NCBI GenBank assembly: GCA_022508375.1
Contig: JAFLVJ010000001.1
Coordinates: forward strand, 254,857 to 318,856
Reading direction: 5' to 3'
DNA: 64,000 nucleotides
DNA from: Clostridiales bacterium
Lineage (GTDB): Bacteria; Bacillota; Clostridia; Christensenellales; CAG-314
In this document: positions 27,097 to 51,839 of the stretch, piece by piece
How positions within the stretch are numbered: position 1 is the first letter of the stretch
Layout of the letters: every line of letters starts with the position of its first letter
Notes under the pieces: model-generated
The model's database searches: none
The model's input: only the letters and a program-made list of their open reading frames with translations
What the model was told of the DNA's origin: nothing
Translations under genes and position numbers: made by a program

Positions 27097-27123
27097 GAGT
27101 AAAGTACACAACAATAGTAAATT

Positions 27124-27208
27124 CGTGCTTTCCTTACGCAAGTGCTAACTTGACAAGTTCAAAGGGACTCTCTCAGCCGAACCGTACGGGCTCGGCACCC
27201 CCAGCAAG
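27124..27208 (-). promoter_or_regulatory. TPP riboswitch (THI element)
   Basis: Read on the minus strand, the conserved landmarks appear in order: GGGGGTGC, a variable hairpin, CTGAGA, the CCCTTTGAAC block, and GCGTAAGGAAAGCA at the 3' end, with P1 closing through TGCT and AGCA. This is the thiamine pyrophosphate aptamer. Together with the terminator at 27061-27096 it controls thiT by transcription attenuation. Confidence 0.93.
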
Positions 27209-27253
27209 ATTATTTTACTACTGTTACAACAATATGTCAATTATTTAAGTCGG

Positions 27254-42949: not shown

Positions 42950-45900
42950 TTACGCTTCATAGTAGGAAACAGTTATTGTCTTTATTTGACCGTTGTAACT
43001 ACTTACTTGAGAAATATTGAAGTAAGAACCTCCCTGTGCTTCATCAACTTCTGCAACCATTTTATTTCCTGTTCCCAATCCCTTCTGGTTTGCTGTCGTA
43101 CCAGTCGACTTCGCTTCTAACATTTGTGTAGTACCAATCGTTATATAGTAAGCTGCGCTACCACTCGATCCACTTTGGATTGTAAATTCAACTTTTACAA
43201 TAGTACCATCGATTTTTGTTTCATTTGCAAACCATGAGGAAGACTTATTGAACATAACATAACCGGAGTTTTGCTTGAGGTTCAAATATTTATATGTAAT
43301 TCCATTTAATTGTGTTGATGCAACAGCAGTGTTTGCAGTACTACTGATACCACTTGTTGTTGTACTCGTTAAATCAATGGTAAGTGTTTTAAGCACCTTT
43401 TGGGTTGCTTCTGCGAAGTTAACAACAATTTCGTTCTTGGCTACTGTAACGTTAAACTTATAGGTATTGTCATTTACTTTTGTCGCTCCAACACCGTTGA
43501 ACGTTACCGAGCCGACTTTGTAGTTAGCATTCGGGGTAACGGTTATTGTTACTTCGTCACCATAAACAAGTCCTGTGGACTGTGAAAGACTTACTTGACC
43601 TAGCGTATCATTGTACGTCAACTTGACGTCGTACAAGATATTTGCAGCAACTTCCATCTTGTCAATATAGTAGGAGTAGTAATTGCTGAATGACGTGTTG
43701 TAAGCAACGCCAATCTTGATTTCGTCGCCTGCTGCAAATTGACTTTTTATGTCTTGGAACGCTTTTGGATTGGTAAACTTGTATTCACCGGTTGCGCTGT
43801 TGTACGAAAATGCACTTTCCGTCGGAGCCATACCGTATATTACCAACTCGTTGCCGGAACTCTTGTCGATAAGTTTGCCGTTACCGTATTGGTCGCTGTC
43901 GTTGCCTGTGGGAACCCAAATACCCGTGACTTCATAGATGTACTTGAGATTTTCGGGAGCGTTTGCAACTAAATCGTCAATTTCTTTGTCGGTAATATGA
44001 GCGGGAATTTGAGAATCATGTCCTTTGCATTTATTTAGACAAGCTTCTTGTTGACAAGAAGTATTTGTACATAGTTGACACGTTGTACATTTGCTTGTGC
44101 AAGTGTGTTGATCGGGATCGGTTGTTCCACCACCGGTTGTGCCATCATCATATCTATAGATTTGAATTGCCGTTTGACTTGCCGAAGCATAACAATTAAA
44201 TATAGGCGAACCATTATTTGCATTGTACTGCATTGTGTTACGAGTGTTGGTACCAGTTGCCACAATAGATGCCGTACCATTAGTAACAGTTATCTTCCAC
44301 AAGCCATTGGCATTATTTGTAGATTGTGTCTTTAATTGATTAGAACTACTTGAAGATGCATACAAGTAACCTGTAGTTCCTGTAACCATATGCAATGCAT
44401 AATTACCGGAAGAATCACGTTCCAAAACAATTTCTTGTACACTTTCAGTCATAGTGATAGTGTTGTCTTTTTTGGTTATAGCAGTACCGGTTCTATTGCT
44501 GCTAGCTTGGTTAGTTGACAATGCGATTTCAACATCTTTACCAACGATAACAATCTTATCCCCATCAGACAATTCACTTGTACTGTTCACAAGCACCCAT
44601 TGCGGTTCGGATTTTTTGTATCCGCACTTGCTGCATGCGCCTTCATCACCTTCGTCGTCATGAGGATTGCTCAATGAAATTTCGCAAAGTTCATCGTCGC
44701 ACGTGATGCTGTGTTGTCCGTTTTCAAGGTCGGTGTACTTGCTGTTGTGAGTTGCGGTAAGGCTGCATTCGTCGCACTTTGCAGTGTGTTGCTTGTTGTC
44801 GCCATCCTCGTACTCCGAGTTGCCGGAATAACTGTGGGTTCCTCTTGTATTGTCAACTTCTTCGCCGCAAGTATCGCAGATGCGCCAGTGTTGTTCACCA
44901 TCACTTGCCCACTTGTTTTGCTCGGTTGTGTGAGTAGTATGCGTGTTGGGATTGGGTTTACCGCAAACGCAGGTGTCATCGGTTTCGTAACTGTGACCTT
45001 CCTCTGCGCCCTTCAAGTCACAACCGTCGTTACAAATGAACCAGTGGTTGTTATCGTCTTTGCCGTAGGACTTATCGTGACTGGAAATTGCTCCTTGGTA
45101 CTCGTCACAGTTTCTGCAAAGTTCTTGGTGTTGATCGTCGCCCAGTGACTTTAAGTACTTTTCGTGAGCAAGTTTTTCGTCGATGGACTTGGTCATTTCT
45201 TCCGCATCGTCAGCGGCAGACGTAAACCACTTGGTACACTTGGTGCATTCGTAGTGGGAAACCCAACCTTGTTGCGTGCATGATGCAACTTGTCCGTTTT
45301 TCAGTTCGATGTTGTGGTTGACAACGGTTTCCGTCTTGTCAATTCCACAACGAGCGCACTTGTATGTAACTTGCGATGCGCAATCTACTTCGGGCGTTCT
45401 GCTTTGTTCTTGCCAGTTGTGATCAACTGTATCAACGTCGTAGTAAATAACGATTGACGTGATATTCATTGAACCACTTACGCTAAACGAAACACTTTCC
45501 GCCGTGCCTTCCCAAGTACCCTTTGTTCCGCTGCTCGTGTAACCATCTGCATTAAGATAATTGCTTCCACGATAGTTAACTACTATCTTTGTGAGGTTGT
45601 TTGCAGTAATTGTGAAACTGCTGTTGTTGTAAACGCGAAGTTCAATGGCTCCGGTTGTACTGTATTGGAACCATCTTATAGCGGTATTGCCCGAACCTTG
45701 ATTGAAAGTAATTGTGATACCTTTATCTTCGCCAAACTTGAGTGTGGCAGTTGAATTGGCACCGCTTGTAATGTTGTCACCACTTGCAACTTTGCTGCTG
45801 TCGGCGTAATCGGACGGTGTAATTGTGAAATCGCCAGGTTGTGCCGTGTAACACCAGTCACCGCATACGCAAGCGTGTCTTTCGCCATCTTTGCCGTAAT

Positions 45901-48900
45901 CGTGAGGACCTTCAACGTCGTATCCGCAGTCGCAAGAACCCATGTGTTGATCGTCAACGGAAATCCACTCCATCTCGTGCGATTGAATATCTTGTTCGCC
46001 ACAAACGCAAGCATATGTGTGTGTTTCGTTGTCACGAGTAACGTAGGTTGTGTATGTATGACCAACTACCTTATCCTTATCTTCGTATTCACACTCGGAA
46101 CACTTATTCCAGTGATTGTCACTATTGTGACCGTAAACTTCTCCGTAATAACCGTCGTGAGTATCGTACAAGTAATGAACGTTACAACCTTCTTGAGCGC
46201 ATACGTACCAGTGACCTTCGCTGTCGTTATCCATTACTTCGTCATTCACGTCGTGACCGACTTGAGTCGTTGTATAAGTGCACTCCGTGCATTTTTGCCA
46301 GTGATTGTCATCGCTCCACTTCCATTCGAGGTCGCATTGTACGGCTTCGTCATGGTGAGAGGGATCGTTGTTACATACGTGGTAATGTTTACCGGGGTTT
46401 TCCTTATCCTCGGTGTATTCTTCCGCGTAGTCGTGACCGAGAGCCTCACCTTCAACGTCGTCACTGTCGGTGAGCGCGGTTACACTTGCTGACCAGTGGT
46501 CTTTGTCAGTCTTTTTGAAACCTTGCATTGCTGCAACTGTAGCCATTTCGGCGTTGATTGTGTAGGTTGTTACTTCCTTGACGGTACACGTCGCATTGGT
46601 TGTTACTTGATGGGTGATAACTTCGCTAAGCGTGATATCGTTGGTTTCGCCACATTCACCGTTGTCACACACAAGATGAAGCGTTACAGTTTCGTGGTTA
46701 TCTGCCCAAGTCCAAGCGTCTTGAGCTGCAAGCTTCCAACTGTGACCAGTTGCAGATTGCAAACCGTCGAAGTAGTTGTCGTCAACCGGTTCGGCACTAT
46801 CTTGCGTTGCAAATGCTTTGTGACAATTGTCGCATTCCCAGTAAGCCTTTAGTTCGTCCGTCGTGCAGGTTGCAGCAGCAGCCTTATGTTCGGTACGGCT
46901 TGAGTGCGCGCAGTACTTGGGATCTTCATTGCCACAAGCGCACTTGCCGCCTTGTCCGTCTTCATTTTGAACGTATTCGTGAGCTTCGTTGTCGCGAATT
47001 ACAGCATGGCAAACGCTACATTTAACGGTATGAGTGTTGTTGACATTGATAACGTACTCTTTTTCGTCGTGCGCTTGCTTGGTGCTTTCATCGATAGATT
47101 CGTCGAATTTGCACTTCTTGGCGTGTTGACCTTCGCCGATATCTACGTAGCTTTCGTAAACGTGTTGACCTTTTACATTGTCGGAAATACTTTCAAGTAC
47201 GGAGTGCTCCTCATTGAAATACTTGCTGCATACCGAACATTGATAGTACGCTACGTTACCTTCGTGTTGACAGTCTGTTCCGCCAACTGCAGGATGTAAT
47301 GTACCGTAGTCGTGAGCGCCCTTTGTATTGTCGGAAAGGCTTTCAAGTACGGTGTCTTTAGCCTCGTTGAAGTACTTGTCGCATACAGAACATTGATAGT
47401 ACGCTACCGTACCTTCGTGTTCACAATCTGTACCGCCAACTGCAGGGTGTAATGTACCGTAGTTGTGAGCGCCCATTGTATTGTCGGAAAGGCTTTCAAG
47501 TACGGTGTCTTTAGCCTCGTTGAAATTCTTGTTGCATGCCGAGCAATGATAGTACGCTACCGTACCTTCGTGTTGACAGTCTGTACCGGGCACAGCAGGG
47601 TTCAACGTACCGTACTTGTGCGCTGTAGGAACTGCCGGGGCAACGGTTTGTTGCTGTGTGATTTCGTTGCCGATTGCGTTGTTGTTATCTGCAAAGTACT
47701 TTTGGCAAGTGCCGCAGTACCAGTAAGCAATGTTACCTGCATTTGTACAATCGGGGGCAACCGCAGGCGTCAATTGAGCGCCAACGTGTTCGCAAGCAGG
47801 TTGAGGATTGCGTGCGATAAGGTTACAACCTGTCAACTCTTTGTCGCTATTGTAGATTGTGAGCGTACCTGAAATAACCACTGTATCGCCAACAACTATC
47901 GAAGTGAGATCGTCGCCGTTTTTAAGTTGGTAAACGTAGATGGATTTGCCACCTGTGGTCATATCAAACGAAATACCGTAGTTGGAAGTCCACGTGTATC
48001 TTATCTTTGTAACTTCGCCAGTAAGTTTGTAGGTGCCGGGCAATGAACCGCTTTCCCTTGCGTAGATAGCGTCAACTGCCTCTTTGTCGGTGTAGGTGTA
48101 TTCGCAAGTGGGACATACACTGAGAATAGGTGAGCAATTTGCCGTTTCCGTTTCCTGACACTTGCTGCAAGTACGCGTGTGCGTCCAAGCGTTGTCGTTG
48201 TGGGTCCACTTCCAATCGTGAGCGCATTCGCCCTCGCCAAGAGGAGCAAGGTACTCTACGTCGAACTTCATCATTCTTCTGTGACCGCTTGAACCACCAA
48301 CGGTTAACGTAACGCTGGAAGTCTTGCCTGTCCATACGCCGTTGCTGTATGTACCTCTATTTGCAGTAATCGCATTAGCGCCGCCATCACCGTTGTCATC
48401 CTTACCGAAAGTAATGGTAATCTTGGTAATGTAGTAACCAACGGGAACGGTTACGGTAACATTGCTACCGCCGTAAACTCTGACAGCCGTGCCGGTGTTG
48501 TAGTATTTACTTCCGGATGAGAAAGTAAATGTTATGTCGCCTACTACTTTTTCCGTTACGTCTTGCGCATTATCATATCCTTGCGCGGTTGTATCGTAGG
48601 TTGCGTCCTTTTCGGTGAGCACTTCGGGAACGTCCTCAACAACTGTGATGACGATTGCCGTATTGCCTTCAACAACGAATTGGTAACTGCCGTCTGCCTG
48701 TGCATCGAGAAGTTCTCCGTTGATTGTAACCACGCTAATCTTGTAACCTTCGTCACAGGTTACCGTAAAGGTGATGGTTTCTCCGACGTATGCTTTGGTG
48801 ACAATTTCGGAAACGGTTGCGTGTTGAACGTTATTTACCGTGATGTCGTATTCGGGGAATTCAAGTCCTTCGAGTGTGCAATCGACAATTTCCTTAGTTG

Positions 48901-50221
48901 CATAATAGGACTTGAGCGTACCGTGTACGGTAATTACACTACCAACTATGATGTCTGCGGTAGCTTCTTCGCCGTCAACAATACCGTAAGCTTCGATTTC
49001 TCTGCCGTCAACCGTGTACCATACGTTTGTGTAGCTAGCAGTACGTTGAATTCTGGTAACCGTACCTGTAAGTGCAAAGGTTCCGTCCATGGACTTTTCG
49101 ACATTGCCAAGAGCATACAAAGCGTCAACAATTTCCTTTTCGGTATAGGTGTAGTTACAATCTTGACACTTATTAAGTACGATATTGCTACAAGCCGACG
49201 TTGTGCCTTGCTCACCGCATACGGAACACGTTTGAGCGTGCGTCCAAGTGTTGACAACGTGAGTTATAAGCGTGTAGTTGTGATTACCTGTTGCAGGATC
49301 GACAGTATCATCTTCGTCGATTTCGTTACCGGCTACACCGTCATTATCAGCGTAGTACTTTTCACAAGCGCTGCAGTACCAGTGTACAATTACACCGTCG
49401 TCACCGCAAGTGGGAGCTTGCGCGTTGACTTTATCAAGATTGCTGTGTGCACCGTATTCGCCTGCGCGTTCACTTTCGGGTATTACTTGATCGTCTGCGT
49501 CAAGCCACTGGTGACAAACTTCGCATACCGAGTGCGCCACGTCACCTGCGTGTGTACAATCCGTACCAACCGTTGCTTCAATCCACGTACCGGGAGTGTG
49601 CGTTGCGGGGATAATGATTGTTGAAAGTTCAACTTTATCTGCGTCGAAGTTCTTGCCGCATATATCGCAATGATAGTGACCGACCGTGCTTTCCTGCGTG
49701 CAGTCGTTTTTGCGATCTTCGGGAATCCATGTGCCGTAGTTGTGAGCTGCAGGATCCTTAGCGCGAACGGTATCTTCCAATTGGATTTCCGTCGTGGCAT
49801 TGGCATCTGAGAACAGCTTGTTGCACTTGCTGCATTTCCAATACTCGATATTGCCTGCATTTGTGCAATCGGGAGCCTTGGCGGGAACATTATTAAGCGC
49901 GTGTTCACAGCCCGTAACACCGGAATTACGTGTGTCCTTTTGGTGACATACCGAACACTCGCGTTCCTCGACGCCTGCCGTTGAGCCTGCGCCCCATTCA
50001 CCCCAACGGTGATTGCCCGTTGCCGGAATTTGCTCCGTTTGAACCTCACCGCACACTATACATGTACGGGTAAGTACACCGGGATCTCCGCACGTGGGAG
50101 CCTTGGTAACTGCATCTTCCCATTTGTGTCCGTTTGTTTCGCAGCGATTGCAAGCTACAAGGGCAAGAACCATTGCAACTGCCAACACTGCCGACAGCAA
50201 AACTAGGATAGTCTTTTTCAT
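42950..50221 (-). CDS. giant modular Cys-x2-Cys-repeat surface lipoprotein
   Basis: 2423 residues. Lipoprotein signal with lipobox LVAC (Cys at about 24) and AAGGAG before the ATG. The chain alternates ~45-55-residue repeats of the form apxC...G...ywxCxxCxkxF...H.Y (over 20 CxxC pairs) with other modules: OB-like domains near residues 362-455, 715-803 and 2070-2180; InlB-type beta repeats near 456-532 and 2190-2240; beta-sandwich modules near 535-660, 1462-1597, 1872-2025 and 2265-2423. A very Cys-dense stretch (CTSKCTTCQLC) is near 2034. No sortase motif is seen. Similar CxxC-repeat surface proteins occur in gut Clostridia, but the function is unknown; metal binding or disulfide cross-linking outside the cell are possibilities. 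Confidence 0.9.
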   Translation of the reverse strand: MKKTILVLLSAVLAVAMVLALVACNRCETNGHKWEDAVTKAPTCGDPGVLTRTCIVCGEVQTEQIPATGNHRWGEWGAGSTAGVEERECSVCHQKDTRNSGVTGCEHALNNVPAKAPDCTNAGNIEYWKCSKCNKLFSDANATTEIQLEDTVRAKDPAAHNYGTWIPEDRKNDCTQESTVGHYHCDICGKNFDADKVELSTIIIPATHTPGTWIEATVGTDCTHAGDVAHSVCEVCHQWLDADDQVIPESERAGEYGAHSNLDKVNAQAPTCGDDGVIVHWYCSACEKYYADNDGVAGNEIDEDDTVDPATGNHNYTLITHVVNTWTHAQTCSVCGEQGTTSACSNIVLNKCQDCNYTYTEKEIVDALYALGNVEKSMDGTFALTGTVTRIQRTASYTNVWYTVDGREIEAYGIVDGEEATADIIVGSVITVHGTLKSYYATKEIVDCTLEGLEFPEYDITVNNVQHATVSEIVTKAYVGETITFTVTCDEGYKISVVTINGELLDAQADGSYQFVVEGNTAIVITVVEDVPEVLTEKDATYDTTAQGYDNAQDVTEKVVGDITFTFSSGSKYYNTGTAVRVYGGSNVTVTVPVGYYITKITITFGKDDNGDGGANAITANRGTYSNGVWTGKTSSVTLTVGGSSGHRRMMKFDVEYLAPLGEGECAHDWKWTHNDNAWTHTRTCSKCQETETANCSPILSVCPTCEYTYTDKEAVDAIYARESGSLPGTYKLTGEVTKIRYTWTSNYGISFDMTTGGKSIYVYQLKNGDDLTSIVVGDTVVISGTLTIYNSDKELTGCNLIARNPQPACEHVGAQLTPAVAPDCTNAGNIAYWYCGTCQKYFADNNNAIGNEITQQQTVAPAVPTAHKYGTLNPAVPGTDCQHEGTVAYYHCSACNKNFNEAKDTVLESLSDNTMGAHNYGTLHPAVGGTDCEHEGTVAYYQCSVCDKYFNEAKDTVLESLSDNTKGAHDYGTLHPAVGGTDCQHEGNVAYYQCSVCSKYFNEEHSVLESISDNVKGQHVYESYVDIGEGQHAKKCKFDESIDESTKQAHDEKEYVINVNNTHTVKCSVCHAVIRDNEAHEYVQNEDGQGGKCACGNEDPKYCAHSSRTEHKAAAATCTTDELKAYWECDNCHKAFATQDSAEPVDDNYFDGLQSATGHSWKLAAQDAWTWADNHETVTLHLVCDNGECGETNDITLSEVITHQVTTNATCTVKEVTTYTINAEMATVAAMQGFKKTDKDHWSASVTALTDSDDVEGEALGHDYAEEYTEDKENPGKHYHVCNNDPSHHDEAVQCDLEWKWSDDNHWQKCTECTYTTTQVGHDVNDEVMDNDSEGHWYVCAQEGCNVHYLYDTHDGYYGEVYGHNSDNHWNKCSECEYEDKDKVVGHTYTTYVTRDNETHTYACVCGEQDIQSHEMEWISVDDQHMGSCDCGYDVEGPHDYGKDGERHACVCGDWCYTAQPGDFTITPSDYADSSKVASGDNITSGANSTATLKFGEDKGITITFNQGSGNTAIRWFQYSTTGAIELRVYNNSSFTITANNLTKIVVNYRGSNYLNADGYTSSGTKGTWEGTAESVSFSVSGSMNITSIVIYYDVDTVDHNWQEQSRTPEVDCASQVTYKCARCGIDKTETVVNHNIELKNGQVASCTQQGWVSHYECTKCTKWFTSAADDAEEMTKSIDEKLAHEKYLKSLGDDQHQELCRNCDEYQGAISSHDKSYGKDDNNHWFICNDGCDLKGAEEGHSYETDDTCVCGKPNPNTHTTHTTEQNKWASDGEQHWRICDTCGEEVDNTRGTHSYSGNSEYEDGDNKQHTAKCDECSLTATHNSKYTDLENGQHSITCDDELCEISLSNPHDDEGDEGACSKCGYKKSEPQWVLVNSTSELSDGDKIVIVGKDVEIALSTNQASSNRTGTAITKKDNTITMTESVQEIVLERDSSGNYALHMVTGTTGYLYASSSSSNQLKTQSTNNANGLWKITVTNGTASIVATGTNTRNTMQYNANNGSPIFNCYASASQTAIQIYRYDDGTTGGGTTDPDQHTCTSKCTTCQLCTNTSCQQEACLNKCKGHDSQIPAHITDKEIDDLVANAPENLKYIYEVTGIWVPTGNDSDQYGNGKLIDKSSGNELVIYGMAPTESAFSYNSATGEYKFTNPKAFQDIKSQFAAGDEIKIGVAYNTSFSNYYSYYIDKMEVAANILYDVKLTYNDTLGQVSLSQSTGLVYGDEVTITVTPNANYKVGSVTFNGVGATKVNDNTYKFNVTVAKNEIVVNFAEATQKVLKTLTIDLTSTTTSGISSTANTAVASTQLNGITYKYLNLKQNSGYVMFNKSSSWFANETKIDGTIVKVEFTIQSGSSGSAAYYITIGTTQMLEAKSTGTTANQKGLGTGNKMVAEVDEAQGGSYFNISQVSSYNGQIKTITVSYYEA
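47160..47615 (-). repeat. three tandem ~153-bp (51-codon) repeats inside the giant gene
   Basis: Three consecutive nearly identical units encode YGTLxPAVxGTDCxHEGxVAYY(Q/H)C blocks ending in LESLSDN. The first two are 153 bp and the third about 150 bp. Identity is high even at the DNA level, unlike the other repeats of the protein, so the duplication is recent. Boundaries are approximate. Confidence 0.8.
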
Positions 50222-50287
50222 TGCGTTTATCTCCTTATATAAAATTTTTTATAATAATACAACCTTATAAGGTTGGTTATTGCACGT

Positions 50288-50325
50288 AAAAAAATCGCCG
50301 CAAGCGTCAATATAGGCTTGCAGCG
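50288..50325 (-). terminator. attenuator-type intrinsic terminator in the giant-gene leader
   Basis: Minus-strand arms CGCTGCAAGC (50325-50316) and GCTTGCGGCG (50305-50296) with one mismatch and a 10-base loop, followed by seven T. It lies ~170 bases inside the predicted transcript and 66 bases before the start codon of the giant gene, so it must be overcome for expression. Its 5' arm begins at the base after the stop codon of the leader ORF. Confidence 0.85.
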
Positions 50326-50424
50326 TTAAATTATGATTAAAGGTGCGCAAAAAACAGAGTCAATGGTACAGGTGTACACATACTCACAGTCCACAATATT
50401 GTTAGTATCCATTGGGAAATTCAT
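50326..50424 (-). CDS. 32-codon leader peptide of the giant lipoprotein gene
   Basis: Starts at an ATG nine bases after GGAG and encodes 32 residues (beginning MNFPMDTNNIVDC, ending FCAPLIII) with Cys at 13, 19 and 26 and three terminal Ile. The TAA (50328-50326) directly abuts the terminator stem. A ribosome reaching the stop codon would cover the 5' arm. RBS, length and placement are those of a regulatory leader peptide. No homologue is known to me. Confidence 0.6.
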   Translation of the reverse strand: MNFPMDTNNIVDCEYVYTCTIDSVFCAPLIII

Positions 50425-50503
50425 CGGCGGTTGCTCCGTTAACTGAAGGGGCTATTGCTCCATAAATGTGCTATATGATACTATGTGGCTATTCAATAAA
50501 TAT

Positions 50504-50532
50504 ATTATACAAAAACCACCCTTTGATGTCAA
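50504..50532 (-). promoter_or_regulatory. perfect consensus sigma-A promoter of the giant gene
   Basis: On the minus strand TTGACA (50532-50527), 17 bases, TATAAT (50509-50504). The transcript should start near 50497 and carry a ~276-base leader. A 16-bp perfect palindrome (CAACCTTATAAGGTTG, 50260-50275) lies between the attenuator and the start codon. Confidence 0.88.
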
Positions 50533-50633
50533 CCCTAAATGTCCATTTTTACGACAATTTTTGTAAGATTTTTTACCTTAGGACGGTTGCATTTTTTTTA
50601 CGCTATTTTGCATACTAAACGCAGGAGGAAACT

Positions 50634-51839
50634 ATGCAAAAAGAAAGCAATTATAAAGAAGAACGAACGGATTTGATTGTGGGGATAGTAACGATAATCA
50701 TTACGTTGGCATTGTTTGCGTGGCTGGTAGCAAGTATCGGGCGCAACGCGCGACAGGAGATTGCCGCCAACACCGTAGGGGAAATAACCGTAATAGGTGA
50801 AACGCGCAGAGGAAGCGAACAAACGTTTACCTACACGCCCGATAGGACGGATATAATGGACGGAGCATACGTGCAATGGACGGTCGATGGCGAACCTGTG
50901 TACGAAGGTGCTTACCTTATCGGAGAACCGCTAACGCTCAACTACACGCCAACCCAAACCGGCGCGATGGAAATTGGCGTAAAAGTTGGCAACTACCACC
51001 AAATGACGACAGTTGAGGTGCTTTCGCCCCGATTGACCATTACAGCACCCTGTATTACATTGACTTACGGAGAACCATTGCCCAAGGTTGACTACGCGGT
51101 TAGCGGATTTGTACCGGGCGAGGACGTAAGCGACTTTTGTTATGACGGACATTGTATTACCGACTGCGACAAACTGAACGTAGGCGTTTATGAACTGAAA
51201 TTTGAAAACGATTGCTGTTACCGTGACTACGAAATAGAATACGTATGCGGAAAATTGACAATTTTACCAAAGCAATTGCAAGTTACAAATAATTTCGTCA
51301 AGATCTACGACGGCACCAACACCATTGACAATCCCACACTGACGCTTGACGGTATTGTGGAAGGCGACGAAGTGTGCGCCAAGTGCGAAACGCTGTATTT
51401 CGACAATAAAAACGTCGGTAACGACAAGACAATAATGCTTGCCAACGTCTGCCTTGAAGGTAAAGACGCAAATAACTACGTTTTGCCCGACTATGCAAGT
51501 GGAAATGTCACACCACGCCAGTTAAAGGTCGTTGGTATGACAGTTAAAGACAAAATCTATGACGGAACCACCAAAGCCACCATTGACAAGATGGCAACGC
51601 TCAGCGGAGTTATCGACGGGGACAGCGTAGCAATCGGCGGACTCAATGTCAGCTTCGACAACGCAAGTGTAGGCAAACAAAGCGTCACGACGCGCAGCAT
51701 TACGCTAATTGGAGCGGACAAAGACAACTACATTGTAGTTGAAGTGGAAAAACCGACCGCTCACATACGTAACAGCAACGGTTTTTGGGACAAGATACTG
51801 GACCGAGAACCCGTTGCGCAAGGCTCGCAACTCGCATAG
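50634..51839 (+). CDS. membrane-anchored YDG-repeat surface protein
   Basis: 401 residues. A short cytoplasmic N-terminus and one membrane segment (about residues 14-36), then an extracellular beta-rich chain. It contains an Ig-like segment, an MBG-like module (TITAPCITLTYGEPLP) and two YDG modules (KIYDGTNTIDNPTL and KIYDGTTKATIDKM). Such modules occur in large adhesins. AGGAGG precedes the ATG. It is divergent from the giant lipoprotein gene, and both encode modular surface proteins. The C-terminus has no anchor. Confidence 0.82.
   Translation: MQKESNYKEERTDLIVGIVTIIITLALFAWLVASIGRNARQEIAANTVGEITVIGETRRGSEQTFTYTPDRTDIMDGAYVQWTVDGEPVYEGAYLIGEPLTLNYTPTQTGAMEIGVKVGNYHQMTTVEVLSPRLTITAPCITLTYGEPLPKVDYAVSGFVPGEDVSDFCYDGHCITDCDKLNVGVYELKFENDCCYRDYEIEYVCGKLTILPKQLQVTNNFVKIYDGTNTIDNPTLTLDGIVEGDEVCAKCETLYFDNKNVGNDKTIMLANVCLEGKDANNYVLPDYASGNVTPRQLKVVGMTVKDKIYDGTTKATIDKMATLSGVIDGDSVAIGGLNVSFDNASVGKQSVTTRSITLIGADKDNYIVVEVEKPTAHIRNSNGFWDKILDREPVAQGSQLA

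Follow-up and report, generated by a model that had tools for sequence, protein, structure and literature searches.

The window is a stretch of 64,000 nucleotides (nt) from the 1.63-Mb draft genome of a Clostridiales bacterium (Christensenellales, CAG-314; assembly GCA_022508375.1, contig JAFLVJ010000001.1, positions 254,857 to 318,856). Its minus strand carries a promoter, a Shine-Dalgarno (SD) sequence, a short leader open reading frame (ORF), an intrinsic terminator and a giant gene for a cysteine-rich lipoprotein-like protein, an arrangement expected of a transcription attenuator. An earlier sequence-only reading of the window had described this layout, with the strand unstated, and all of its elements were found. 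The features are as follows.

50504-50532, minus strand: promoter TTGACA-17-TATAAT, a 12/12 match (-35 box at 50532-50527, 17-nt spacer, -10 box at 50509-50504).
50434-50437, minus strand: SD sequence GGAG of the leader ORF, with a 9-nt spacer to the ATG.
50326-50424, minus strand: leader ORF of 32 codons, MNFPMDTNNIVDCEYVYTCTIDSVFCAPLIII (ATG at 50424, stop codon TAA at 50328-50326), its frame conserved among homologues.
50357-50385, minus strand: mid-ORF hairpin GAGTATGTGTACACCTGTACCATTGACTC, a candidate pause hairpin, followed by T6 at 50354-50349.
50288-50325, minus strand: intrinsic terminator, a 10-bp stem-loop (50325-50296) followed by A and T7 (50294-50288), its pairs covarying among homologues.
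50231-50236, minus strand: SD sequence AAGGAG of the giant gene.
42950-50221, minus strand: target gene for a 2,423-residue lipoprotein-like protein with a signal peptide ending LVAC-N, 102 Cys and 26 CxxC motifs.
50634-51839, plus strand: divergent neighbour for a 401-residue protein that has a hydrophobic segment at its N terminus and YDG/MBG domains; it served as syntenic marker for homologous leaders.

The leader promoter is the sole 12/12 match among the sites found in 3 kb, and its position would place the start of transcription at about 50497. The terminator stem begins at the first base after the leader stop codon and is separated from the giant ATG by 74 nt. The energy of the stem-loop is about -16 kcal/mol, and the 47-nt stretch has a z-score of -3.5 against shuffled sequences. 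As its T-run lies only toward the giant gene, the terminator does not mark the end of the divergent gene (50634). When the contig (325 kb) was scanned for terminators at most 100 nt upstream of a gene, two were not ordinary gene ends, and of these 5' untranslated region (5'-UTR) terminators only the present one has a short ORF with an SD sequence that runs up to the stem. A perfect inverted repeat, CAACCTTATAAGGTTG, then TATTATTATA, lies between terminator and giant gene (50260-50275, minus strand), perhaps as an operator or a further weak hairpin, and is not found at the corresponding place in the nearest relative, G023. The target gene is 7.27 kb in length, and its product (4.2% Cys, 11.2% Thr) contains one InlB-B-repeat-like stretch, a weak match below the Pfam cut-off.

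Twenty-five genomes of the genus were examined and 18 leaders were recovered, that of the window and those of G001, G002, G003, G005, G006, G008, G009, G011, G012, G013, G014, G017, G018, G019, G020, G022 and G023. The arrangement is present before cysteine-rich lipoprotein genes in 17 other species, the strongest sign that the layout in the window is more than a chance one. A DNA search matched one relative (G023, at 72% identity over a stretch that opens with the ORF and closes with the terminator T-run); the other leaders were located via the divergent YDG-domain protein, after which the intergenic region was read. A scan of the genome contigs gave five loci only. A covariance model, which did not reach the window's leader or the divergent ones, found one leader copy per genome and none outside the genus. 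Copies of the ATGCGCGCGTTA type elsewhere in G008 and G022 were set aside as chance occurrences in unrelated sequence without a promoter, and a protein search of viral contigs returned an irrelevant fragment only. Each of the 18 leaders stands directly upstream of a large cysteine-rich lipoprotein gene that opens with similar Cys repeats. Where the contig permits measuring, the target frames reach up to 7,474 residues; the longest (G022:C50) is rich in the same repeats.

A promoter matching at 11 or 12 of 12 positions lies at the same place in 13 of the 18 leaders (the window and 12 others), and an SD-like sequence precedes the leader ATG in the homologues. The leader ORF is 29-43 codons long, with the exception of G001, and begins with ATGCGCGC in most species, the window and G023 being the exceptions. 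Many leaders share MRALF...RYIL, but the peptide is poorly conserved overall and the C termini differ. Between the start of the leader ORF and the giant gene no promoter-like sequence was found in 17 of the 18 leaders, and in the homologues the giant ATG follows the stem at a distance of only 25-43 nt, so that transcription must pass the terminator.

Judged by its pattern of change, the leader ORF is genuine. In 17 of the 18 leaders the first stop codon in frame 0 is at most 8 nt ahead of the terminator stem or at most 25 nt inside it (-8 to +25 from the stem start), whereas in the two other frames of the same leaders a stop falls within that range in 0 of 36 cases; the nominal Fisher probability of 4e-13 overstates independence, the sequences being related. 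Each terminal branch of the neighbouring protein nevertheless carries about 0.5 changes per site, and the stop, while remaining within the range, has switched at least twice (four changes under parsimony) from a place just before the stem to one inside it or back. Substitution quality is 0.63 in frame 0 versus 0.09 and 0.06 in the other frames (p = 0.02, column permutation), and five of six indels inside the ORF, counted by hand in the alignments, are multiples of three. Loss of the ORF with retention of the terminator, the pattern that the sequence-only reading had named as telling against an attenuator, was not found, both the ORF and the stop-terminator geometry being conserved. At the level of sequence, comparison shows the anatomy of the leader, its conserved frame, the placing of its stop and, in all but one of the leaders, the lack of another promoter. 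A functional microprotein was rejected, since the peptide is not conserved. Runs of 6-9 G occur inside the leader ORFs of L018 and L019 (G013 and G001), and a one-base shift at the run in G001 would extend its frame to near the terminator; such runs are possible slippage or phase-variable sites.

Among the leaders, RNA structure is indicated at three places. The pairs of the terminator covary. In leaders of the ATGCGCGC type a hairpin holds the SD sequence and the start codon, with AUG in the loop and the SD sequence paired to UUCUUC of codons 5-6 with compensatory changes. The mid-ORF hairpin is predicted in all 18 leaders, starting at codon 9-18 (usually 13-18), and in 17 of these 19-34 nt separate it from the terminator stem downstream; in most leaders a T-rich stretch follows it. 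In 16 of 16 leaders tested the hairpin folds at a lower energy than codon-permuted versions do on average, individually often without significance. Its sequence varies and its position is kept, as may be expected of a pause hairpin. NusG of the Bacillus subtilis type recognises TTNTTT beside such hairpins (PMC12288461); the exact motif is not in every leader. A long-range pairing of the AUGCGCGC loop of the start hairpin with ACGC of the mid-ORF hairpin was considered and dropped by eye, the flanks not covarying and the window lacking the loop. Duplex folding of the 18 leaders found no consistent pairing with the 5' arm of the terminator and none better than in shuffled sequence, in agreement with the absence of an antiterminator noted earlier by eye.

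The best explanation is probably a ribosome-mediated transcription attenuator acting by direct masking of the terminator. For translation, pausing, masking and the direction of the response the following course is proposed. Transcription would start at the strong consensus promoter and the leader ORF would be translated; the mid-ORF hairpin and its T-rich stretch probably hold RNA polymerase, and the first ribosome would catch up. With a ribosome close behind the polymerase at the leader stop, its footprint would lie over the 5' arm of the terminator, no hairpin would form, and transcription would read through into the giant gene. If no ribosome initiates, or if one elongates slowly or stalls at an earlier point, the terminator would fold and the RNA would end after about 200 nt. 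With the leader stop in the A site, 5-17 nt of the terminator 5' arm would lie under the ribosome in 16 of the 17 leaders measured, G001 being the one outside this coverage; G022 fits by the position of its stop. In Escherichia coli, ribosomes repress a terminator almost completely when a stop codon lies only a few nt from it, while in amino-acid attenuators the two are more than 20 bp apart, a distance that avoids such repression (PMC4824070). The attenuator proposed in the sequence-only reading stands as far as a ribosome-masking leader is concerned, on the conserved ORF, the stop-terminator geometry, the promoter in 13 species and the lack of an antiterminator; its suggestions of cysteine supply and of a conserved terminal Ile do not.

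The leader compares most closely with that of tlrB (yxjB) in B. subtilis, where a ribosome blocks the terminator without an antiterminator and pausing brings about synchrony (PMC6851288). Both have a leader ORF, a ribosome-masked terminator (here proposed) and no overlapping antiterminator, and the tlrB pause hairpin and T-rich stretch that synchronise polymerase and ribosome may have their counterpart in the hairpin predicted here. The tlrB leader differs in needing a tylosin-stalled C-terminal arrest motif (RYR) and in having an rRNA methylase as its target (PMC6851288), whereas in the present leader no C-terminal motif is conserved and the target is a giant surface protein. In the pyrBI attenuator of E. 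coli, likewise, the terminator lies inside the ORF and ribosome-polymerase coupling set by pausing decides read-through; that system, however, senses UTP and feeds pyrimidine synthesis (PMC4824070), while the present target is a giant lipoprotein. The bmrB-bmrCD attenuator of B. subtilis is similar as a Firmicute leader ORF with the terminator inside it and with read-through set by the rate of leader translation, but an antiterminator and an anti-antiterminator are predicted there, the target is drug efflux, and inhibition of translation raises expression (PMC4191407). Attenuators of the trp/his type also join a leader peptide to a terminator, but they have runs of regulatory codons, an antiterminator and more than 20 bp from stop to terminator (the last from PMC4824070), none of which was found here; G001 alone among the 18 leaders has a wider spacing, 45 nt. 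In the other 17 the terminator abuts the end of the leader ORF or lies inside it. The leader ORFs have SD sequences of their own and a substitution pattern that indicates coding selection. No conserved arrest motif near the terminator was found among the leaders compared. On these sequence features, operation like that of the known masking attenuators (the pyrBI, bmrB and tlrB leaders) is best supported.

Several observations weigh against masking as described. Repression of terminators that lie in the first 100 bp of a coding region is poor unless pausing restores coupling (PMC4824070), and the pause that the present leader would need is a predicted one. The leaders of G022 and G003 have no recognisable promoter. 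Conservation in frame 0 past the first codons is modest (p = 0.02). The leader ORF of G001 is only 20 codons long, ending just past a G-run and leaving 45 nt to the stem. That of G023 carries a net frame shift of one over its 3' half, yet its stop lies in the terminator loop.

As to what such an attenuator would sense, general translation status is the simplest fit, because the sequence of the leader peptide is poorly conserved. A more novel form of this proposal, put forward tentatively and with less than an even chance, is a gate for translation capacity, in which a rehearsal ORF of 30-40 codons checks that ribosomes initiate and keep pace with the polymerase, without reference to a specific amino acid or drug; the location of the start codon in a hairpin in most species would suit it.

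It is unlikely that the leader is an amino-acid-specific attenuator whose Cys (or Thr) codons read charged tRNA, so that cysteine starvation leads to termination and the giant protein is made when cysteine is plentiful. Cys codons are enriched in frame 0 (39/564, versus 9/552 and 14/551 in the other frames), Cys makes up 6.4% of leader residues versus 1.7% in the long ORFs of the contig, and Thr stands at 11.2% in the leaders versus a background of 6.3%, with the target of the window itself at 4.2% and 11.2% for the two residues. However, the leader of G022 has no Cys and nine others have one or two; the 0-3 Cys per leader are scattered and shift in position, with no regulatory run. The in-frame enrichment may stem partly from RNA motifs (TTTTTGCAC, TGTGAG) held in frame, and the correlation of overall composition between leader and target is weak (0.24). 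Four other giant lipoproteins with related repeats in the source genome (1.8-4.6% Cys) have no such leader upstream, the one at 4.6% included; these genes also led to the rejection of the leader as a general feature of cysteine-rich giants. With the masking geometry, starvation would silence the giant gene, contrary to what happens in biosynthetic attenuators. Cysteine supply as the signal, suggested in the sequence-only reading, is disfavoured on the same grounds, and the terminal Ile is absent in most homologues.

An arrest peptide of the tlrB, erm or bmrB type is very unlikely; here a ligand or antibiotic bound in the exit tunnel would halt the ribosome close to the terminator, and read-through would follow. 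The architecture matches that of the tlrB leader, likewise without an antiterminator, and MRALF...RYIL is common to many leaders; but this motif lies upstream by 15-20 codons, with conservation of its first codons at the nucleotide level, a stall that masks the terminator would have to take place at the C-terminal residues, which are not conserved, and the target is not a resistance or transport gene.

Slightly less credible again is a structured RNA that binds a protein or ligand and controls the terminator, the ORF being incidental. The start and mid-ORF hairpins do covary (13 cells changed on both sides, a count reached by 0 of 500 shuffles and above all slid controls), and the loop of the start hairpin, AUGCGCGC, is identical in the ten leaders aligned. 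The placing of the stop in 17 of 18 leaders versus 0 of 36 alternative frames and the substitution pattern of frame 0 nevertheless require an ORF, the start hairpin is unsupported in the window's own leader (z-score 0.1), and no alternative pairing with the terminator was seen. Rfam scans at gathering and permissive scores gave no family at threshold for the leader in the window and 16 homologous loci.

Highly improbable is an independent small gene or small RNA with its own terminator and a giant gene under another promoter, since, although promoter, ORF and terminator form a self-contained unit and basal read-through alone could supply the giant gene, 17 of the 18 leaders have no second promoter-like site, the stem-to-ATG distance is short in the homologues, the peptide is conserved less than a functional protein would be, and the leader, in one copy per genome, is always directly 5' of the giant gene.

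Three of the four leaderless giant genes have, by eye, a promoter-like sequence about 40-50 nt before the start codon. Upstream of two paralogous giant lipoprotein genes, at L122 (G000:C20), inverted repeats GGAAC(CTCG or TTTG)GTTCC lie between promoter and SD sequence in place of a leader ORF; these repeats are perhaps a different shared control of the paralogues. On the divergent side, CATACTA (50611-50617, plus strand) stands shortly 5' of the SD sequence of the YDG gene and recurs there in many relatives, at a spacing too short for an ordinary -10 box. A TPP riboswitch scores above the gathering score at 27113-27212 of the window, minus strand.

Bacteria commonly have terminators in 5'-UTRs with unassigned input (15,930 candidates across 302 genomes; PMC2965389), and for that reason the device is of a known kind; it stands before a new kind of target, a combination of target and features new to the authors. 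The attenuators compared above control amino-acid or pyrimidine synthesis and antibiotic resistance, and the present one a giant surface lipoprotein. The leader has been kept across an uncultured gut genus of Clostridia without an antiterminator or a regulatory codon run, its peptide diverging while the stop-terminator geometry stayed fixed. The 18 leaders offer natural material for comparative work on how transcription and translation are coupled in Clostridia, and the frame statistic (17 of 18 versus 0 of 36) is a simple test by which other masking attenuators may be found without expression data. If the translation-capacity gate is true, these bacteria would check their capacity before committing to a messenger RNA of 1,000-7,000 codons for one surface protein.
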